Below, piece by piece: positions 2,161 to 46,583 of a stretch of 49,051 bases of DNA. Numbering within the stretch: position 1 is the stretch's first letter; every line of letters begins with the position of its first letter. This DNA comes from Planctomycetota bacterium (lineage in GTDB: Bacteria > Planctomycetota > PLA2 > JAEUHO01): contig JASJDY010000032.1 in assembly GCA_030065025.1 (NCBI GenBank), positions 1-49,051 of the forward strand, in the 5' to 3' direction. Under the pieces are notes generated by a model. The model saw only the letters and a list, made by a program, of their open reading frames with translations. It was not told the origin of the DNA and made no database searches. The translations under genes and the position numbers were made by a program.

Positions 2161-3981
2161 ATGGACCTCGACATCCACGGCTGGATCGCGCTCGCTACCC
2201 TCGCCGGCGCCACGACCCTCTTCCTCACCAAGTGGCTGCCGATCCCCGTGACCGCGTTGAGCATCCCGGTCGTCCTGTTCGCCACGAACGTGCTGCCCGA
2301 CGCCAAGGACGCGCTCAAGGGCTTCGGCAACCAGGCGGCGCTGGCCATCGCGGCCGTGTTCGTGCTCGGGGCGGGTCTCAAGGAGTCGGGCGTCGCCACG
2401 CTCATCGCGCGCGGCCTGCAGCGGCTGGGGGGGACCAGCGAGCCGCGCCTCATCGTGCTCCTCATGCTGGCAGCCGGCGTGCTGTCCGCCGTCATGAGCA
2501 ACGCGGCCGTCGTCGCGATCCTGCTGCCCGTCGGCATCGCCCTGGCGCACCGCTCCGGCGTCGCCGCCTCGCGCCTCCTCATGCCGCTCGCGTTCGCCGC
2601 GGTGCTCGGCGGCACGATCACGCTCATCGGGACGGCGCCGAACTTCCTCGTCGGCGACTACATCGCGCAAGAGGGCGCCAAGCTGGCCGAGGGCCTCAAG
2701 CTCACGATCTTCGACTTCGCGCCGGTCGGGCTCGCCATCCTCGCGACGGGCACGCTGTTCATGGTGCTCGTCGGCCGGCGCATGCTGCCCGAGGTCAGGC
2801 GCGAGGATCGGTTCGCGGCCGCGCAGCTGCCGGTCGAGACGGCCGAGAGCTTCGGCGTGGCCGACAAGCTCTTCGCCCTGCCCATCACCGAGCGCTGCGG
2901 CTTCGCCAACATGTCCGTCGCGGAGGCCAACATCCGCAGCCGCTACAGCCTCGGCATCGTGATGATCCACCGTCCGAAGGCCGTCGCGCAGCGCTGGATC
3001 GATCCCGAGCCCGCGCGCACGATCCGCCCCGGCGACGTGCTCTACGTGCAGGGTGAGGAGGTCGCGGCCTGGAACATCTGCGAGGAGGAAGGACTACAGT
3101 TCAGCCTCGCGGAGGCGGGTGACCTGAAGGAGATCCTGCGCCGCGGTACGACGCTCGCCGAGATCGCGCTGCCTCCGCACTCGCGTGCCGCGGGACGGAC
3201 GCCGCGCGACATGCGGTTCGGGGAGCGCTTCGGGCTCGACGTGCTCGCCGTGAGCCGCCGCGACGGCGTCATGGTGGACGCGCCCAGCGACGTCAAGCTC
3301 GAGGTCGGTGACGCGTTCCTCGTCTCCGGTCCGCCCGAGAAGGTGCATCAGATCTCGCGGCACCCCGACTTCACGGTCCTCACGGACATCTCCCAGGAAG
3401 AGGACGTCACGCGGGCGCCCATCGCGATCGGCCTGCTCTTCACCGCGCTGATCCCGCCGATCGTGCACGGCGTACCGCTGGCGGTGTCGGGTCTCGGTGC
3501 CGCGCTCCTCATGTACGCCACGGGCTGCGTCTCGAAGCGCGCCGTGCGGCGCGCGGTCGACTGGAACGTCATCTTCCTGATCGTCGGCACGCTGCCGCTC
3601 GGCATCGCGCTCGACCGCCATGACGTGGCCGCCGTGGCTGCAGGCTGGATCAGCGACCTCGGCGGCGCGACGGGGCCGATGGGCGTGTTCGGCGCGCTCT
3701 TCCTGCTCGCTGCCGGCGTGGCCGTGCTGACGAGCAACGCCGCGGCTGCCGTGATCGTGGCGCCCGTCGCCGCCCGCGCCGCGGTGGAGGCCGGCGTCGA
3801 TCTGCGCGACGCGCTGCTCGTCATGGGGTACGGCTGCAGCTGTGCGTTCCTGCTGCCGTTCGCGCAATGCAACATCCTGGTGATGGCCCCCGGCGGATAC
3901 AAGACACGCGACTTCCTGCGGATCGGCGCGTGGATGAGCCTCGTCATGGCGGTGACGACGATCGTGCTCTTCTCGTTGTGA
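2161..3981 (+). CDS. SLC13/DASS-family permease with central TrkA-C (RCK-C) domains
   Basis: Start MDLDIHGWIALATLAGATTLFLTKWLPIPVTALSIPV; SNAAVVAILLPVGIAL and LTSNAAAAVIVAPVA permease motifs; soluble centre with two RCK-C-like segments (GDVLYVQGEE, GDAFLVSGPPEKV). Confidence 0.9.
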   Translation: MDLDIHGWIALATLAGATTLFLTKWLPIPVTALSIPVVLFATNVLPDAKDALKGFGNQAALAIAAVFVLGAGLKESGVATLIARGLQRLGGTSEPRLIVLLMLAAGVLSAVMSNAAVVAILLPVGIALAHRSGVAASRLLMPLAFAAVLGGTITLIGTAPNFLVGDYIAQEGAKLAEGLKLTIFDFAPVGLAILATGTLFMVLVGRRMLPEVRREDRFAAAQLPVETAESFGVADKLFALPITERCGFANMSVAEANIRSRYSLGIVMIHRPKAVAQRWIDPEPARTIRPGDVLYVQGEEVAAWNICEEEGLQFSLAEAGDLKEILRRGTTLAEIALPPHSRAAGRTPRDMRFGERFGLDVLAVSRRDGVMVDAPSDVKLEVGDAFLVSGPPEKVHQISRHPDFTVLTDISQEEDVTRAPIAIGLLFTALIPPIVHGVPLAVSGLGAALLMYATGCVSKRAVRRAVDWNVIFLIVGTLPLGIALDRHDVAAVAAGWISDLGGATGPMGVFGALFLLAAGVAVLTSNAAAAVIVAPVAARAAVEAGVDLRDALLVMGYGCSCAFLLPFAQCNILVMAPGGYKTRDFLRIGAWMSLVMAVTTIVLFSL

Positions 3982-4006: not shown

Positions 4007-5815
4007 ATGGAGCTGACCGTCCACGGCTGGATCGCGCTCGCGACGCTCGCCTTCGCGACGACCATGCTCATCACGCGTTGGCTGCCGATCCCGATCACGG
4101 CGCTCAGCATCCCCGTCATCCTGACCTCGACGGGCGTGCTCAGCGATCCGCGCGATGCGCTGCGTGGCTTCGGCAACAACGCCGTGATCGCCATCGGCGC
4201 CATCTTCGTGGTCGGAGCCGCGCTGCGGGAGAGCGGCGTGGCGACGTTGATCGCGCGGGGCCTGCAGCGCGTCGGCGGACGCAGCGAGACGGGCCTCGGG
4301 CTCCTGCTCATGGGGGCCACGGCGCTCATGGCGGCGTTCATGAACAACACCGCCGTCGTCGCGATCCTGCTGCCGGTCGGCGTCGTGCTCGCGCGCCGGT
4401 CCGGGCTCGCCCCCTCGCGGTTGCTGATGCCGCTCTCGTTCGCGGCCGTGCTGGGCGGCACGATCAGCCTCATCGGCACCGCCCCGAACTTCATCGTGGC
4501 CGACTACTACAACGAGGGTGACTTCGAGGGCAAGATCGGCATCTTCGACTACGCCTTCGTCGGCATACCGATCACCGTGGTCGGCGTGGTCTTCATGGCC
4601 TTCGTCGGCCGGCGCTTCCTACCGACGATCAGCACGGAGGATCGTCTCGCTGCTGCGCAGGTCCCCGAAGAGGTGGCCAGCAGCTACGCCGTGCCGGACA
4701 AGTTGTTCACGCTGCGGATCGGGGGCCACTCCCCGCTCGTGGGCAAGACGATCGCCGAGTCGGGCGTGCGCAACCAATACAGCCTCGAGATCGTGATGAT
4801 TCGCCGTCCCACGGCGCTGGCCGACAAGTGGATGCATCCGGATCCGGGGCTGCGCCTGGAGCGCGGCGACGTCCTCTACGTCAGTGGCGACGACGCGCAG
4901 GCCTGGGACATCTGCGAGGAGGAGGCGCTCCAGTTCGGGCTCGCAGATCGCGAGTCCATCAACGAGCTGCTGGGACACGGCGCGACGCTGGCCGAGGTCA
5001 CGCTCACGCCGCACTCCCCGGCCATCGGACGCACGTTCCGGCGCATGGACTTCCGCAAGCGCTTCGGTCTCAACGTGCTCGCGATCTTCCGCCGGAACGA
5101 GGTCCTCCGTGAGAACCTGCCCGAGGAGCCGCTGCAGCTGGGCGACGCGTTCCTGGTGACGGGCACGCCGCGCAACGTGCGTGCGCTCGAGCGCCATCCC
5201 GACTTCAACGTGCTCACGGATCAGAGCCAGGTCGAGGACGTCACGCGCGCACCGCTCGCCATCCTGCTCATGCTCGTGGCGCTCGTGCCGCCGATCGCGT
5301 TCGACTTCCCGCTCCCGATCAGCGCGATGGGCTCGGCGATCCTGATGGTGCTCACGCGCTGCATCTCCCGCTCGGCGCTCCGGCGCTGCATGGACTGGCC
5401 CGTGCTCGCGCTCCTCGTCGGGACGATGCCGCTCGGCACCGCGCTCGAAGAGCAGCAGATCGCCGGCGGCGTGGCGACGTTCCTCACCGATCTGAGCTCG
5501 GAGCCGCTCGTCCTGTTCGCCCTGCTCTTCGGCATGGCGGCCGTGTTCTCCAACCTCGCCAGCAACGCAGCCGCGGCCGTGATCATGGCGCCCGTCGCCG
5601 TGCGGATCGCCGCGGGCGTCGAAGGGATGGAGCCCAAGGCCGCGCTCCTGGCCATGGCCTACGGCTGCTCCTGCAACTTCATCGTCCCCTTCTCGCAGTG
5701 CAACCTGATCGTGATGGCGCCCGGCGGCTATCGCGCGCTCGACTACATCCGTACGGGGCTGGCGCTGTCCTTCGTCATGGCCGCCACGACGATCATCACG
5801 CTCTCGTTCATGTGA
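4007..5815 (+). CDS. SLC13/DASS-family permease with TrkA-C domains (tandem paralog of preceding CDS)
   Basis: MELTVHGWIALATLAFATTMLITRWLPIPITALSIPV...; collinear similarity with 2161..3981 along the whole length. Confidence 0.9.
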   Translation: MELTVHGWIALATLAFATTMLITRWLPIPITALSIPVILTSTGVLSDPRDALRGFGNNAVIAIGAIFVVGAALRESGVATLIARGLQRVGGRSETGLGLLLMGATALMAAFMNNTAVVAILLPVGVVLARRSGLAPSRLLMPLSFAAVLGGTISLIGTAPNFIVADYYNEGDFEGKIGIFDYAFVGIPITVVGVVFMAFVGRRFLPTISTEDRLAAAQVPEEVASSYAVPDKLFTLRIGGHSPLVGKTIAESGVRNQYSLEIVMIRRPTALADKWMHPDPGLRLERGDVLYVSGDDAQAWDICEEEALQFGLADRESINELLGHGATLAEVTLTPHSPAIGRTFRRMDFRKRFGLNVLAIFRRNEVLRENLPEEPLQLGDAFLVTGTPRNVRALERHPDFNVLTDQSQVEDVTRAPLAILLMLVALVPPIAFDFPLPISAMGSAILMVLTRCISRSALRRCMDWPVLALLVGTMPLGTALEEQQIAGGVATFLTDLSSEPLVLFALLFGMAAVFSNLASNAAAAVIMAPVAVRIAAGVEGMEPKAALLAMAYGCSCNFIVPFSQCNLIVMAPGGYRALDYIRTGLALSFVMAATTIITLSFM

Positions 5816-8340: not shown

Positions 8341-9477
8341 ATGGCCGCGAAGAAGAAGGCAGCGAAGAAGAAGGCGGCGGCCAAGAAGGCGGCCAAGAAG
8401 AAGGCTGCGCCGAAGAAGAAGGCCGCGGCCAAGAAGACCGCCAAGAAGGCGCCCGCGAAGAAGAAGGCCGCCAAGAAGACCGCCAAGAAGGCGGCGAAGA
8501 AGGCGGCCAAGAAGACCGCGGCGGCGCCCGCCGTTCCCGCCGAGGACCTCCCTGAGGAGGAGCTCGAGGAAGAGCCGGTCGAGCTGCTGCCGCCGATGCC
8601 CAAGATGCCGCCGCGCAAGGCGGGTCCCATCACGCTGGCCTACGGTGGCGCCTCCGACCAGGCCTTCATGGTCTTCGCCCTGGCCGCGGAGCAGGTCGAC
8701 ACCGAGGACCGTACGTACGAGCTGGTCCGCCGCGAGATCCAGGAGCTCGAGGCGGAGGCCGAGAAGGTCGTGCACGACGTCACGGCGATCAGCTTCGGCG
8801 CGTACCCGCGTCTGCGGGATCGCTACCTGCTGCTCGCGTGCGGCGGTGCGTACGGTGACCACCAGGGACCGATCCTCGTCGCGCGCAAGCCGATTCGCGC
8901 CGGTGAGGTCGAGGGGCTCGAGGTCGCCGTGCCGGGCGAGGACTCGTCGGCGGCGCTCGCGCTGCGTCTCTGGCTGCCGCAGGCCAACCTGAAACTGAAG
9001 CCGATGCCCGTGCGCGAGATCTCGCTTCGCGTGCGCGCCGGCCATGTGCGCGCGGGCCTGCTCGTGAACGAGGACATCGTCACGTACCGCAACCACAACC
9101 TCGTGCGCATCGTGGACCTCGGCCAGTGGTGGGGCGACCGTACGGAGGGGCTGCCGATCGCGCTCACCGCCAACGTCATCCGACGCGACATCCCCGAGGA
9201 GCTGCGCGTCAAGATCGCGCTCGATCTCAAGCGCTCGATCGCGTACGCCCTCGGCCATCGCGAGGAGGCGCTCGACTGGGCGATGCAGTTCGCGGGCCGC
9301 AACGTGCGCGAGACGCTCGATCGCTTCGTGGGGCGCTACGTCAACGACCTGTCGCTCGACTGCGGCGAGCGTGGGCGTCAGGCGGCGCGGCTGCTCTTCC
9401 AGGAGGGCGCGCGGCACCGCTTCCTCGATGAGGCGTACGAGCCGGTCTACCACGGGGACGAAGCGGCCAACGAGTAG
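8341..9477 (+). CDS. mqnD: 1,4-dihydroxy-6-naphthoate synthase-like (MqnD, futalosine pathway) with N-terminal histone-H1-like Lys/Ala tail
   Basis: Tail MAAKKKAAKKKAAAKKAAKKK...; MqnD-like ITLAYGG..QAFMVFALAAEQVDTEDRTYE, DVTAISFGAYPRLRDRYLLLACGGAYG.GPILVARKP, GLEVAVPGEDSSAAL, IVDLGQWWGDRTEGLPIAL, RSIAYALGHREEALDWA, YVNDLSLDCGERGRQAARLLF. Confidence 0.85.
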   Translation: MAAKKKAAKKKAAAKKAAKKKAAPKKKAAAKKTAKKAPAKKKAAKKTAKKAAKKAAKKTAAAPAVPAEDLPEEELEEEPVELLPPMPKMPPRKAGPITLAYGGASDQAFMVFALAAEQVDTEDRTYELVRREIQELEAEAEKVVHDVTAISFGAYPRLRDRYLLLACGGAYGDHQGPILVARKPIRAGEVEGLEVAVPGEDSSAALALRLWLPQANLKLKPMPVREISLRVRAGHVRAGLLVNEDIVTYRNHNLVRIVDLGQWWGDRTEGLPIALTANVIRRDIPEELRVKIALDLKRSIAYALGHREEALDWAMQFAGRNVRETLDRFVGRYVNDLSLDCGERGRQAARLLFQEGARHRFLDEAYEPVYHGDEAANE

Positions 9478-38919: not shown

Positions 38920-40812
38920 CTAATAGCCGGGAATGGACCGCAGGCCCGCCGCCGGGGCGGCGCCTTCGGCCGGCGCCTTGGCGCCGGGCCGCGGCATGCC
39001 GTCGAGCAGGCGCCGGATGTCCTCGCTCGCCTTCTCGAGCGCGGCCTTCGAGCCCGAGACGAAGACGACGTACGTGCGAGCTGCGTCGCCCGCGATGTGC
39101 ATACGGCTCACACCGTCCGCGGCGGGGAGCGGATGCTGGATGCCGGCCTGCCCCATGACCCGCGTCTGGGTCACCGACTGCGGGTTGAACATGTTGCCCA
39201 GCACCATGCGGCCTACGCGCGGCAGGCCGGCCGCGGTGCTGCCCTGGTCGACGACGATGAACGCGACGGTGACCTCGCCCTTGCGCGCCGTCGCGAAGGC
39301 CATCGGCGACCGGCCGCCCTCGATCGCCTCCCAGCCCTCGGCGGGGAGCTTGAGGCCGAGACCGCGCTGGCGGTCTACGACGTCGTAGCCCTCGAAGGGG
39401 TCGCGCGCCTCGTCGCCGTGGTCGTCTTCGCGCTGCTCGAAGGACGTCTTGACGACCTCCGCCCAGGCCCGGTCGAAGCGCTCTGCGGCGATGCCGTCGA
39501 GGATCAGGACCTCGTGGTCGCGCTGCAGGATGCGGCCGCGGCCGTGGATGCCGCGGTAGTCGAAGCGCTTGCTGGAGCCCTCGTCGTCGAGCAGCGTCCA
39601 GCCCTCGCCCTTCCACGCGTCCGCGTTGCGGAGCCTCAGGGCGGCGCCGAACGTGCGGGCCGCCTCGTCGGCGTCCTCGGGCGAGTCGAAAGCCAGCGCG
39701 TGCACGACGACCATGCCGTGCTCCGGATGCTCGATGTACTTTGCGCGCCCGGCATCCCAGCCGCGCGCTGCGCGGTTGGACATGGCGTCGACGAACTTGC
39801 CGATGCCCATCGTGCGCGTGTTCAGGCGGCCCTTCCGGTCGCCGAGGAAGTAGTCGAGGTAGACGGCGAGGTCGAGCTCGCCGACCGAGTGCTCGGCCAG
39901 CTTCGTCCAGCCGTCACCCAAGGACTTCGCCACGTCGCCGCCCCAGATCACGCGCCGCGGATGATCGCGCTTGGTGCCGAGCCACTTGTGCGGGTGCAGG
40001 ATCTGCTCCTGCGAGACGGGCGGGTCGGCGACGAGCTTGGCCATGCCGCCGACGTAGTCGTCCCCGACGGCGTGCGTCACGAAGTTCGGGCCGGCGCGGT
40101 AGTGCAGCATCGTCGAGAGCAGCATGTGCGTGGGCACCGTGCGCATGACGCGCGCCTGTCCCTTCTGCATCGCGGTGTTCTGGGCCATCTGCTTCTGGTG
40201 GGCGTGGGCAGCGTCGGGACGCAGGGTCTCGAAGCGGCGCCGGGCCCACTCGGCGCTGCCCTCGAAGAGGCAGCGGATGGCGAACTGACGGTCCGGGTCG
40301 TCCTCGCGGTAGGGCTTCTCGATCTTCTGCAGGTCGAGGTGCTGGTCCTCCAGCGCGTGGATGAGCTCGTGGACGAGCGTGGGGATGTTGGCCTTGCCCT
40401 CGAAGCCGGCCGTCAGGACGAGACGCTTGGTCTTCGGGTCGTAGGCACCCGCGACCATCTCCTGCAGCATCAGCTGCGCCAGGTCGCGTAGATCCTCGTC
40501 CTCCTTCAGGAGACCGAGCCGCCGGACGATGCGGTTGTCGCGCGCCCACTCCTCCGGCTTGACGTCGCGCGCCATGCCCTTCTGCATGTACTCGCGCAGC
40601 TCCTCGCGTGAGAGCAAGCGAACCGGCACGTCGTGCTTCCACTCGAGGCCGCGGAGCTTGGCGACCTGGGGGCGGATCTCGTCGACCAGCTTTTGGAGCG
40701 CGACCTGCTCGGCGTCGTCCTGCGGCGCCGGCTTCTCGCCCGCTGCCAGGGGGGCGGCGAGGAGCAGCAGGACGCCGGCGAAGGCGACGATGCGGGCGAC
40801 TTGACGGCTCAT
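38920..40812 (-). CDS. secreted HExxH putative metallopeptidase
   Basis: Signal peptide VARIVAFAGVLLLLAAPLAAGE; zinc-binding type motif IPTLVHELIHALEDQHLDLQKIE; 630 aa. Confidence 0.7.
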   Translation of the reverse strand: MSRQVARIVAFAGVLLLLAAPLAAGEKPAPQDDAEQVALQKLVDEIRPQVAKLRGLEWKHDVPVRLLSREELREYMQKGMARDVKPEEWARDNRIVRRLGLLKEDEDLRDLAQLMLQEMVAGAYDPKTKRLVLTAGFEGKANIPTLVHELIHALEDQHLDLQKIEKPYREDDPDRQFAIRCLFEGSAEWARRRFETLRPDAAHAHQKQMAQNTAMQKGQARVMRTVPTHMLLSTMLHYRAGPNFVTHAVGDDYVGGMAKLVADPPVSQEQILHPHKWLGTKRDHPRRVIWGGDVAKSLGDGWTKLAEHSVGELDLAVYLDYFLGDRKGRLNTRTMGIGKFVDAMSNRAARGWDAGRAKYIEHPEHGMVVVHALAFDSPEDADEAARTFGAALRLRNADAWKGEGWTLLDDEGSSKRFDYRGIHGRGRILQRDHEVLILDGIAAERFDRAWAEVVKTSFEQREDDHGDEARDPFEGYDVVDRQRGLGLKLPAEGWEAIEGGRSPMAFATARKGEVTVAFIVVDQGSTAAGLPRVGRMVLGNMFNPQSVTQTRVMGQAGIQHPLPAADGVSRMHIAGDAARTYVVFVSGSKAALEKASEDIRRLLDGMPRPGAKAPAEGAAPAAGLRSIPGY

Positions 40813-42315: not shown

Positions 42316-42843
42316 ATGGCACGTGCGCTCACGATTCTCGCCTGTCTCGTCCTCATGGCGGGGTGCACCAGCGACGGCGACGGTGCCCCTGCGAGCGGCG
42401 TGGCCACGCCGACCGTGGCGGGCGGACCCACGCCGACCTACACGGACTACGCCACCGCCCGCGAGGCCTTCACGCGCCGGAGCGACGACGGGGTGCTGGG
42501 CGCCACGCTCGAGGACGCGGCGTGGCTGCGGTTCGAGGGCGACGCGGAGACGGTCCAGAAGGCGCATCGCGCGTACTTCGACTACGGCTACACCAGCTTC
42601 AAGATCATCCTGCGTGCGAAGGAGTACACGCGGCCCACGGAGGAGGTGTTCCTGCTCGAGGACGACGGGGGCGCCCGGGTTCAGGGCAAGCCCGTCACCT
42701 TCACGGGCAGCATGCGGCTCGTGGACGACCGCTGGCAGTTCACCTTCGACCTGTCGTTCCAGCACGCGATCACCAAGGACACGCGCTGGCTCCGACTCAC
42801 ACGGGTCAAGGACAACGCGACCGTCGAATGGTCGTTCCGCTGA
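42316..42843 (+). CDS. lipoprotein of unknown function
   Basis: Lipobox MARALTILACLVLMAGCTSD; coherent 175-aa ORF; GGAGG upstream. Confidence 0.7.
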   Translation: MARALTILACLVLMAGCTSDGDGAPASGVATPTVAGGPTPTYTDYATAREAFTRRSDDGVLGATLEDAAWLRFEGDAETVQKAHRAYFDYGYTSFKIILRAKEYTRPTEEVFLLEDDGGARVQGKPVTFTGSMRLVDDRWQFTFDLSFQHAITKDTRWLRLTRVKDNATVEWSFR

Positions 42844-42849
42844 ACGGCC

Positions 42850-44064
42850 CTACGTCGCCTGCTTGACCGTCCCCCGCGCCACGCGGTCCAGGACCTCGTC
42901 GACGCGGCCGCCGATCTGTACGGGGCGGATGCCGACGGCCCGGAGGAGCGTGACGGCGCGCTGCGAGAAGCCCGTCGCCACGACCGCCCGGCAGCCGACG
43001 ACGGCATGCAGGAAGGCGCGCGAGTCGCCCACGCCGTCGTGCCGGCGCAGGATGCTCTCGTCGAGGTGCCGCGTGCCCAGGCAGCGGATGTGGTTCTCGG
43101 TGACCGCATAGATGCGCAGCAGCGGCGTGCCGGCGAGCGTCGAGTCCACCAGCGTGCCGTCGCGGCTGGCGACCGCGACGAACTGTGCCTTGCGTCGCGG
43201 CAGCAGGCGCGCCGGCTCGTCGAAGCCGTCCGGGTCCGGCAGCGTGCGCAGGATGTCGACGGCTTCGAGCGAGTCGACGTCCACGGCGCGGCAGCGCTCG
43301 GGGCTGATCCAGTCGGTGACGCGGGGGCCACGCAGGCGGCCGCGCGACGCCTTGGCGAAGGCATCGGCTGCCGTGTCGCGCGCGTCCTCGAGCTCGCCTT
43401 CGGTCGGGGTGCCGCCCCGCAGCAGCGGGGCGCCGGGGACCTCGACGTGCGGGACGACGTCCATGCGCTCCGCGCCCCAGCGCGCGGACTCGCGCGCGAT
43501 GCGCTCGATCTCGTGCGCGTTGACGGTGGGGACGAGCGTCGTGCGGATCGCCACCGAGAAGCCGTGCTGACGCGCGATGCCCAGCGCGCGGTGGGTCTCG
43601 TCGAGGACGAGCGTCGCGGCCGCGCTGCGCTCCAGGCGGTCGGCGCGGTAGACGGCGCCGGCGACGAGCCGCTCCGCCGTCCGCTGGGTCGCGGCATCCA
43701 CCTTGAGCACGAGGTAGCCGAGACCGAACGTCTCCAGCTCCTCCGTGTACTCGGCGAGCAGCGGACCGTCGATGACGAGGCCGGTCAGGACGTCGGGGTG
43801 GTGTTCGCGCACCAGCGCCAGGATGCGCAGCACGCTCTCTGGGCTCGCGAGCGGATCGCCGGGGCCCTCGACCTCGAGCACCAGGGGACCGCGGAGGCCG
43901 GCCCGCGCCGTCGCCACGTAGCGCAGCACGTCGGGCACGTCCACGACGGGGGCCTCGGCGTCGAAGGGCGTGTCGCGGCGCAGCACGAGGGGGTGCGGCG
44001 CGGCGGCGACACGGAGGCGCCAGATGCCGAGCTGGGTGCCGGAGGGGGTGGGGCCGGGACTCAT
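42850..44064 (-). CDS. NifB-like protein (radical-SAM-type barrel plus NifX/NafY-like C-terminal domain) lacking the CX3CX2C cluster motif
   Basis: EVEGPGDPLASPESVLRILALVREHHPDV (NifB GPGDPLANPE); RQHGFSVAIRTTLVPTVNAHEIERIARESARWGAERMDVVPHVEVPGAPL; ERCRAVDV (NifB HCRQCRADA); QFVAVASRDGTLVDSTLAGTPLLRIYAV...FLHAVVGCRAVVATGFSQRAVTLLRAVGIRPVQI. Confidence 0.7.
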   Translation of the reverse strand: MSPGPTPSGTQLGIWRLRVAAAPHPLVLRRDTPFDAEAPVVDVPDVLRYVATARAGLRGPLVLEVEGPGDPLASPESVLRILALVREHHPDVLTGLVIDGPLLAEYTEELETFGLGYLVLKVDAATQRTAERLVAGAVYRADRLERSAAATLVLDETHRALGIARQHGFSVAIRTTLVPTVNAHEIERIARESARWGAERMDVVPHVEVPGAPLLRGGTPTEGELEDARDTAADAFAKASRGRLRGPRVTDWISPERCRAVDVDSLEAVDILRTLPDPDGFDEPARLLPRRKAQFVAVASRDGTLVDSTLAGTPLLRIYAVTENHIRCLGTRHLDESILRRHDGVGDSRAFLHAVVGCRAVVATGFSQRAVTLLRAVGIRPVQIGGRVDEVLDRVARGTVKQAT

Positions 44065-44162: not shown

Positions 44163-44915
44163 GTGAGCGAACCCCTGCCCCCGTCGTACCCCGCACCGCA
44201 GCACCCCGCCCCGAAGAGCGAGTGGAAGCCTCTCTCGGGCCTGGCCGTGACGGCGTTCGTGCTCAGCCTCGTGCTGATCCTGATCGCCCTGCCGGGGCTC
44301 TGGATCGTGCAGCTCGTGCCGCTGCTGCTGGGCATCGCGACCCTGGTGATGGTCAAGCCGGGGCAGCGCCGCGGCCGCATCCTCGCGGTGTGGGCCATCG
44401 TCATCTCGCTCGCCATCGGCTCGTGCTCGTTCACGATGCACCAGGGCATGCGCGGTGTGCTGAGCGGGACGAACGAGTCGATCCTCTCCGTGCTCTCGTC
44501 GAAGATCTCGGACGAGGAGAAGGCGAAGTCCTTGCGAAGCTGGGTCTGGCCCAAGGCGCTGGAGCAGGACGAGAAGCTGCCCGCGACGTGGATGCAGCGC
44601 TACGCCGGTGTCGTGGCGGAGTTCGGTCCCTGGCGTGAGTCCTTCGAGCTGCCGTCCATCGTCTACGGATCGACCCCGCTCTTGATCGCGCCGGAGGGTC
44701 TCGTGGAGATCGGCAGCGACGGCGAGAAGCCGCCGAGCTGGACGATGGGTTCCACGATCTGGACCCCCGCCGTGTTCGAGAAGGGCATCGTCCACGTGGC
44801 GATCGTGCTCCAGGAGGGCGATCAGAAGGGCGTCGAGGCTCTCGGCACGCTGCGCCCCGGCGAGGAGACGGCCGTCGTAGGCGACGTCCGCTTCTTCCGC
44901 GCCAAGGCTCCGTAG
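44163..44915 (+). CDS. membrane protein (DUF4190-like N-terminus)
   Basis: VSEPLPPSYPAPQHPAPKSEWKPLSGLAVTAFVLSLVLILIALPGLWIVQLVPLLLGIATLVMVKPGQRRGRILAVWAIVISLAIG. Confidence 0.75.
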   Translation: MSEPLPPSYPAPQHPAPKSEWKPLSGLAVTAFVLSLVLILIALPGLWIVQLVPLLLGIATLVMVKPGQRRGRILAVWAIVISLAIGSCSFTMHQGMRGVLSGTNESILSVLSSKISDEEKAKSLRSWVWPKALEQDEKLPATWMQRYAGVVAEFGPWRESFELPSIVYGSTPLLIAPEGLVEIGSDGEKPPSWTMGSTIWTPAVFEKGIVHVAIVLQEGDQKGVEALGTLRPGEETAVVGDVRFFRAKAP

Positions 44916-44987: not shown

Positions 44988-46583
44988 ATGCGCACCCGTC
45001 GACTCGCTCTGCCGCTCGTCGCCCTCGCGGCGATCGCGCTGCTGTTCGCGGCGCCCGCCGACGCCAAGCTGAGCAGCAAGGAGTGGAAGGAGGCCGAGAC
45101 CCGCTTCGAGGAGCTGTTCTCGCAGAAGGGCAACGCGAAGGCCAAGGCCGAGGTGCTGGCGACGATCGCCTCCGACGGCTCGGGCCGCGCGTTCCGCCTC
45201 ATGGCGGACGGCCTCTTCAAGGAGGTCGAGCTCTTCAACCGGCTCATGATCAAGATCACGAAGGCGTCCGCCGAGCGCAGCATCCTCGTGGGCAAGGGCA
45301 TCAAGGGCTTCACCGCCGTGGACGAGGCGCGCGCCAAGGAGCTCGATGCCGAGCTGAAGGAGCTCGAGGCCGCGCTCAAGGAGGAGCGCGAGGCGCTCAA
45401 TGCCGTCACGAAGGCCGTCTGCGAGGGCCCGGAGATCCTGCGGAAGAACATCCTCCAGCGCGCCAAGGGCGGCGGCGATTGGACCTTCCGTGCCGCCGCC
45501 ATCCGCGTCGCCGTGATGACGATGAAGGAGAAGGCCTCGAAGCAGTTCCTCATGCGCACGTTGAGCAACGACAAGGACCCGCGGGTGCGCCTCGCGGGCC
45601 TCGACGCGCTCGGCTCCGTGCCGGAGGGCTACGAGGATCTCGTCATCGGCCGCCTCGCGGATCCGTACTGGGGTGTCGTCTTGCGCGCCGTCGCCATCGC
45701 GAAGGACCGCGAGATGCACGACGCGGTGCCGCACCTGATCAATGCCCTGCCCAAGGCCGGCCCGCGTGTGGCCGAGGCCGTCGGCGCGGCTCTGCGCAAG
45801 CTCACGGGCGAGAACTTCGAGGCGTACGCCGACGTCTGGAGCAAGTGGTGGGAGGAACACAAGAAGGACTTCACGGGTGACGTGAAGGTCAAGAAGGGCA
45901 AGCGCGAGGAGTTCGCGCGCGTCGACTTCTACGGCGTACCGATCAAGTCGGACCGCATCCTCTTCATCATCGACATCAGCAGCTCGATGAAGCTGAAGAC
46001 GAAGAACGACAATCCCAAGGAGCGCTGGAAGCCGCCGCCCACCACGACGGGTGGCAAGGCGCCGCCTCCGCCGCCGCCCCCCGAGGAGATCCTCAGCGGG
46101 CCGAAGATCGACGTCGCCAAGCATGAGCTGAAGAAGGCGGTCAAGCAGCTGCCCAAGCACTACATGTTCAACATCATCTGCTTCAACCAGGGCGCCGTGC
46201 CGTGGCAGAAGACGATGGTCAAGGCGAGCGCGAAGAACAAGGAGAGCGCGTATCAGTGGATTCGCACGCGCAAGCCCAGTGGCAGCACCTACATCGACGG
46301 TGCGCTCCGCATGGGCTTCACGATGGCGGGCCTCATCAACTACGACAAGCGCTATCCGGACATCTCCGTGGACACGATCGTCCTGCTGTCGGACGGCGCG
46401 CCCACGGACAGCTCGTTCCCCGTGTCCAAGCTCATGGATCCCGAGGTGATCCTCGAGCACGTGCGTCAGTGGAACAAGGACAAGAAGATCGTGATCCACT
46501 GCATCGGCGTCGACATGGTCACGAGCATCGAGTTCCTCCAGAAGCTTGCCGCCGAGAACGGCGGGACCTACGTCGACCGCTGA
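44988..46583 (+). CDS. secreted HEAT-repeat protein with canonical VWA domain
   Basis: Signal peptide; HEAT-like LMRTLSNDKDPRVRLAGLDALGSVPEGYEDL; MIDAS ILFIIDISSSMKLKTKND; TYIDGALRMGFTMAG; IVLLSDGAPTDSS; IHCIGVDMVTSIEFLQKLAAENGGTYVDR. Confidence 0.9.
   Translation: MRTRRLALPLVALAAIALLFAAPADAKLSSKEWKEAETRFEELFSQKGNAKAKAEVLATIASDGSGRAFRLMADGLFKEVELFNRLMIKITKASAERSILVGKGIKGFTAVDEARAKELDAELKELEAALKEEREALNAVTKAVCEGPEILRKNILQRAKGGGDWTFRAAAIRVAVMTMKEKASKQFLMRTLSNDKDPRVRLAGLDALGSVPEGYEDLVIGRLADPYWGVVLRAVAIAKDREMHDAVPHLINALPKAGPRVAEAVGAALRKLTGENFEAYADVWSKWWEEHKKDFTGDVKVKKGKREEFARVDFYGVPIKSDRILFIIDISSSMKLKTKNDNPKERWKPPPTTTGGKAPPPPPPPEEILSGPKIDVAKHELKKAVKQLPKHYMFNIICFNQGAVPWQKTMVKASAKNKESAYQWIRTRKPSGSTYIDGALRMGFTMAGLINYDKRYPDISVDTIVLLSDGAPTDSSFPVSKLMDPEVILEHVRQWNKDKKIVIHCIGVDMVTSIEFLQKLAAENGGTYVDR

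Follow-up and report, generated by a model that had tools for sequence, protein, structure and literature searches.

Locus and protein layout

The window, meaning the whole stretch of 49,051 nucleotides analysed here, is a single contig of a 3.89-Mb Planctomycetota genome that is 89% complete. It carries a gene for a protein of 404 amino acids related to NifB, together with three conserved neighbours, and the features of this locus are as follows.

42316..42843 (+): lipoprotein-like protein of 175 aa without a Pfam match; conserved convergent neighbour
42850..44064 (-): gene for the putatively cluster-less NifB-like protein; 404 aa plus stop, ATG start
42868..43185 (-): residues 294-399, NifX-like domain (Nitro_FeMo-Co), from Pfam and Foldseek matches to 9ian_F and 2re2
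42991..42993 (-): Cys358, invariant in 12/12 orthologs and common to the NifX-like domain of two-domain NifB
43186..43344 (-): linker of low conservation (residues 241-293) replacing NifB HCxxCRADA
43291..43293 (-): Cys258, present in only 3/12 orthologs
43345..44028 (-): partial barrel of the NifB radical-SAM type lacking the cluster ligands (residues 13-240), from PDB sequence matches, the predicted model and Foldseek
43543..43545 (-): Arg174, invariant; NifB has an equally invariant Asn at this barrel-strand site
43846..43866 (-): residues 67-73, GPGDPLA, corresponding to the NifB AGPG motif, situated where the GGE motif for the SAM amino group would be
43972..44010 (-): residues 19-31, site of NifB LPVAPxCNxxCxxC, without Cys in the alignment with 15 planctomycete NifBs
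44163..44915 (+): DUF4190-like membrane protein, under the Pfam cut-off; conserved divergent neighbour
44988..46583 (+): HEAT plus VWA protein; conserved neighbour

Orthologs of the NifB-like gene, 49-84% identical to the window protein, are present at the same locus in all twelve genomes of the same taxonomic family, which span six genera, and all twelve have intact frames without internal stops. The lipoprotein and DUF4190-like genes flank the ortholog in each of the 11 other family genomes, ten of which also have the VWA/HEAT gene next; in the remaining one the contig ends beforehand. Regarding operon context, the gene stands alone among lipoprotein, DUF4190-like, VWA/HEAT, M50 and CvpA neighbours; because it is convergent with the lipoprotein gene and divergent from the DUF4190-like gene in most genomes, its surroundings indicate no metabolic pathway. 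An exception to the divergent order is genome G009 (L024 7549-12651), where the gene shares its strand with the DUF4190-like and VWA genes. Nearby in the window, positions 38920-40812 (-) encode a conserved secreted protein of 630 aa with a weak match to DUF6782 (putative metallopeptidase), and this gene is syntenic across much of the family.

Relationship to NifB

NifB is the nitrogenase cofactor maturase, building the core of that cofactor, and the 404-aa protein is a true two-domain relative of it. The NCBIfam nifB model TIGR01290 matches the protein at an E-value of 4.8e-20 and 71.7 bits, short of the nifB equivalog cut-off of 343.65 bits, and NifB chains of the PDB are matched by sequence (6y1x at 2.2e-12; 7bi7, 7jmb and 7jma at about 1.3e-11), with a profile of the 12 ortholog sequences raising the match to 6y1x to 2e-21. 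Pfam Nitro_FeMo-Co (PF02579) scores 38.9 bits (E 1.1e-9), over its gathering score of 26.3, and is matched in all twelve orthologs at E 0.01 or better; Pfam Radical_SAM scores slightly under its gathering score for the window protein. Judged by these scores, the homology to NifB is well beyond chance, and the NifB-like stretches that an earlier sequence-only reading of this DNA had picked out are present, with the NCBIfam, PDB and Pfam matches backing the kinship it proposed.

A template-free AlphaFold2 model (pLDDT 80, pTM 0.73, with pLDDT below 50 for residues 272-292 and low confidence for loop 71-73) was compared with the PDB using Foldseek, where the top five matches were NifB chains, followed by other radical SAM enzymes; the best match was 7jma (E 5.5e-15, TM by target 0.89, rmsd 2.2), and the C-terminal domain matched NifX 9ian_F and 2re2. 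The predicted structure has both a NifB-like partial barrel and a NifX fold, as the sequence-only reading expected, and the predicted, sequence-related partial beta-alpha barrel places the protein in the radical SAM superfamily by fold. The collinear order of its domains, radical-SAM partial barrel first and NifX-like domain second, is that of two-domain NifB (PMC5715403), and the AGPG region is retained, whereas the PDB NifBs 6y1x, 7bi7, 7jma and 7jmb are single-domain archaeal forms.

Loss of cluster ligands and NifB motifs

In NifB of M. acetivorans, Cys50, Cys54 and Cys57 are the ligands of the SAM cluster, Cys30, Cys63 and Cys129 together with His43 those of K1, and Cys264, Cys274 and Cys277 those of K2 (PMC7145814). 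When the twelve orthologs are aligned with 15 planctomycete NifBs, none of them has any of these nine cysteines or the K1 histidine, and their cluster loop falls about 13 residues short of that in the NifBs. Compared with NifB, the 404-aa protein lacks HPC, CX3CX2C, ExRP, TxTxN and Cx2CRxDA, and its cluster loop is shortened; the three-Cys site of the catalytic radical SAM superfamily is not present in it.

The missing CX3CX2C motif had already been reported from the letters of the window gene, with a hidden frameshift named as a possible cause. Neither the gene nor the sequence immediately before it contains such a motif in any frame of the gene's strand, it is missing from all twelve orthologs too, and starts further upstream in frame offer no alternative, the upstream open frame of the orthologs being without the motif as well. 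Because twelve of twelve same-locus orthologs share the loss, it is not a sequencing artefact. The motif is retained in all 18 other planctomycete NifB loci read.

Regarding the remaining motifs, the alignment finds neither HPC, which holds a K1 Cys, nor the K1 His ligand in the orthologs; the other remaining K1 Cys is Gly95 in 12/12, and the columns of the K2 motif Cx2CRxDAxG are without Cys in all twelve. ExRP has lost its E while most orthologs retain RP, TxTxN is replaced, its Asn being Asp123 throughout the orthologs, and AGPG is found as GPG only, the preceding Ala usually being Glu. Thus AGPG alone survives, as GPG, of the six NifB motifs in PMC5715403; GPGDP is invariant, and G67-L72 are unchanged in 12/12 orthologs.

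The protein contains exactly the three cysteines counted earlier, Cys258, Cys328 and Cys358. The proposal that one of them aligns with the second Cys of HCRQCRADA fails: Cys258, considered as a surviving K2 ligand, is found in only three of the twelve orthologs and, aligned with NifB, lies off the columns of the K2 cysteines, and the resemblance is a coincidence. Cys358, the sole invariant Cys, is the ordinary Cys (DCRA) of the NifX-like domain, as in two-domain NifBs.

Origin, selection and residue exchange

In an unrooted tree of the barrel a long branch leads to a single clade (100/100) holding the 12 orthologs, and the inner order of the clade broadly tracks the genera. No ortholog was found in the sister-family genomes forming the rest of the class sample (0/5), and the search for an empty site there showed that the locus is not preserved. 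A peptide scan of genome contigs for Cys-less relatives outside the phylum returned two family members only, and the best plasmid matches were distant proteins annotated as NifB or radical SAM. The best reading of these patterns is that the cluster-less family would have a single, ancient origin.

Pairwise dN/dS among the orthologs is 0.17-0.32 (Nei-Gojobori), values that are approximate because synonymous divergence is moderate to high, and the gene is, on this sequence measure, under purifying selection and not decaying. Within the barrel, invariant residues make up 40% of the mouth loops, 15% of the base loops, 21% of the strands and 18% of the helices, where the mouth is defined by the secondary structure of the predicted model and not by measured coordinates; such conservation of the mouth loops can also stem from structural constraint. 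Between the family orthologs and the NifBs, 33 columns are fixed alike and 18 are fixed in both groups but exchanged. The fixed exchanges from NifB to the family include Cys to Gly95, Thr to Arg121, Asn to Asp123, Lys to Ala172, Asn to Arg174, Asn to Asp202 and Leu to His206, a pattern at the former active site that would be expected from a change of function and not from decay.

Nitrogenase genes and physiology

The twelve family genomes contain no nifH and neither a nifDK-type gene nor a nifB over the cut-off, so that the earlier statement that the window is free of nif genes holds and extends beyond it; a second, canonical nifB elsewhere, which was considered, did not appear over the cut-off in any of them. 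Because each of these metagenome-assembled assemblies is incomplete (70-93%), the absence rests on the 12 genomes jointly. As positive controls served two planctomycete genomes with canonical nifB, G351 and G260, and nifDK was detected in both. The members of the family are apparent non-fixers. Because all twelve encode a haem-copper oxidase, aerobic respiration is likely in the family, judging from gene content; circumstantially, the oxidase is consistent with bacteria living in air, for which an exposed cluster would be a liability.

Genome G009, which is without nifH or nifDK, has two adjoining Nitro_FeMo-Co genes (L027 2824-3877), followed by a fragment of a MinD/Mrp-like ATPase gene at the contig end.

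Possible function of the protein

The gene product is very probably a radical-SAM pseudoenzyme derived from NifB. A cluster-less pseudoenzyme was among the options of the sequence-only reading, and it is well supported because the Cys loss is fixed across the family and the gene is under purifying selection; the scaffold put forward beside it is disfavoured, if taken as an iron-sulfur scaffold, because all nine cysteines and the His ligand have been lost, while the cofactor-binding or regulatory role that it also named is kept as a candidate. Since all the amino acids that hold the clusters of NifB are gone, an ancient radical enzyme seems to have become something else, and we infer that no cluster is present in the protein. 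The ancestor would have been a two-domain NifB, i.e., barrel plus NifX-like domain; because the barrel tree is unrooted, it is this shared architecture that favours NifB proper over an older NifB-like radical SAM protein as the suggested source. After the loss of the cluster ligands the protein would have been kept cluster-free and, most likely, oxygen-tolerant, its rebuilt barrel mouth probably binding a small anionic or polar ligand at a candidate site composed of the GPGDP loop with Asp99, Asp123, Arg174, Thr176, Asn182 and His206, and the NifX-like domain may pass the state of this ligand on as a sensor, carrier or regulator. Taken as a whole, this account of a NifB-derived, cluster-free pseudoenzyme with a mouth ligand and a NifX-like relay is the one we favour as probable, while small-ligand binding at the mouth, which draws on the predicted model, is put at even chances. 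Similarly balanced is the formulation that a vertically inherited two-domain NifB was stripped of its three cluster sites, acquired new mouth residues and would act as a ligand sensor or a non-radical enzyme.

The barrel could instead bind no ligand and serve as a structural platform for other proteins, e.g., for the products of the conserved neighbours. The loss of all catalytic ligands and the family-wide retention of the lipoprotein, DUF4190-like and VWA/HEAT neighbourhood, in which VWA and HEAT domains are interaction modules, agree with such a role, but it is the barrel mouth that is most conserved, more so than the helices, on which an outer contact surface would lie, and new charged residues are fixed at the mouth; we regard a platform as rather unlikely, if worth serious thought. 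Those same new Asp, Arg and His residues around the mouth, along with the invariant GPGDP in the place of the SAM amino-group motif, would also suit a non-radical enzyme that binds SAM via GPGDP and uses SAM or another substrate in cluster-free polar chemistry. This is an unlikely reading: the TxTxN and the strand-5 Asn of NifB are exchanged, the cluster that anchors the amino-carboxylate of SAM in radical SAM enzymes is missing, and the searches made here gave no known cluster-free SAM enzyme of this fold.

Carriage or chaperoning of a metallocluster in the manner of NifX/NafY is suggested by the NifX-like domain, which passes the Pfam cut-off in the 404-aa protein and is matched in 12/12 orthologs, and by the invariance of Cys358; since that Cys is an ordinary one of the domain family, one Cys alone makes a poor site for a cluster, the HLG motif known from NifB's NifX-like domain has lost its His here (Thr309 and others) and there are no nif genes to make such a cluster, this role appears very improbable. 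That the gene is a decaying nifB remnant or an assembly artefact would fit metagenome-assembled genomes in which no nif genes remain, but it is refuted, to near certainty, by the 12 intact same-locus orthologs, with their 49-84% identity and dN/dS of 0.17-0.32.

Relation to known systems

To our knowledge, NifB is regarded as a protein of nitrogen fixers only and as one that cannot do without its clusters. A descendant of NifB that is cluster-free yet under selection throughout a family of apparent non-fixers would show that the fold can be reused after the loss of its chemistry, and the protein would be a tractable, probably oxygen-stable subject for studying such reuse. The C-terminal domain has the same fold as the Nitro_FeMo-Co proteins NifX and NafY (9ian, 2re2), whereas here it is fused to a putatively cluster-less barrel, the HLG His is replaced and there is no nitrogenase cofactor to carry. 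A precedent for the reuse of a radical-SAM fold in binding and delivery is HemW, a radical SAM protein acting as a haem chaperone (PMC10320005); HemW, however, belongs to another subfamily and retains CX3CX2C and its cluster, unlike the 404-aa protein, which is without the motif.

A literature search found no description of a cluster-less NifB-derived family, and a search for clusterless radical SAM proteins gave nothing fitting. The NifB survey of PMC5715403 dropped NifB annotations without CX3CX2C and deemed them NifX, a filter that would conceal proteins of this kind. For annotation pipelines the family is a warning that such genes should not be called nifB.

Other genes in the window

A tandem pair of similar CitMHS/TrkA-C transporters is encoded at 2161-3981 and 4007-5815 (+). 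At 8341-9477 (+) lies a gene for a menaquinone biosynthesis protein (Pfam VitK2_biosynth at residues 98-356) whose N-terminal extension is long, Lys/Ala-rich and histone-H1-like (MAAKKKAAKKKAAAKKAAKKKA...).
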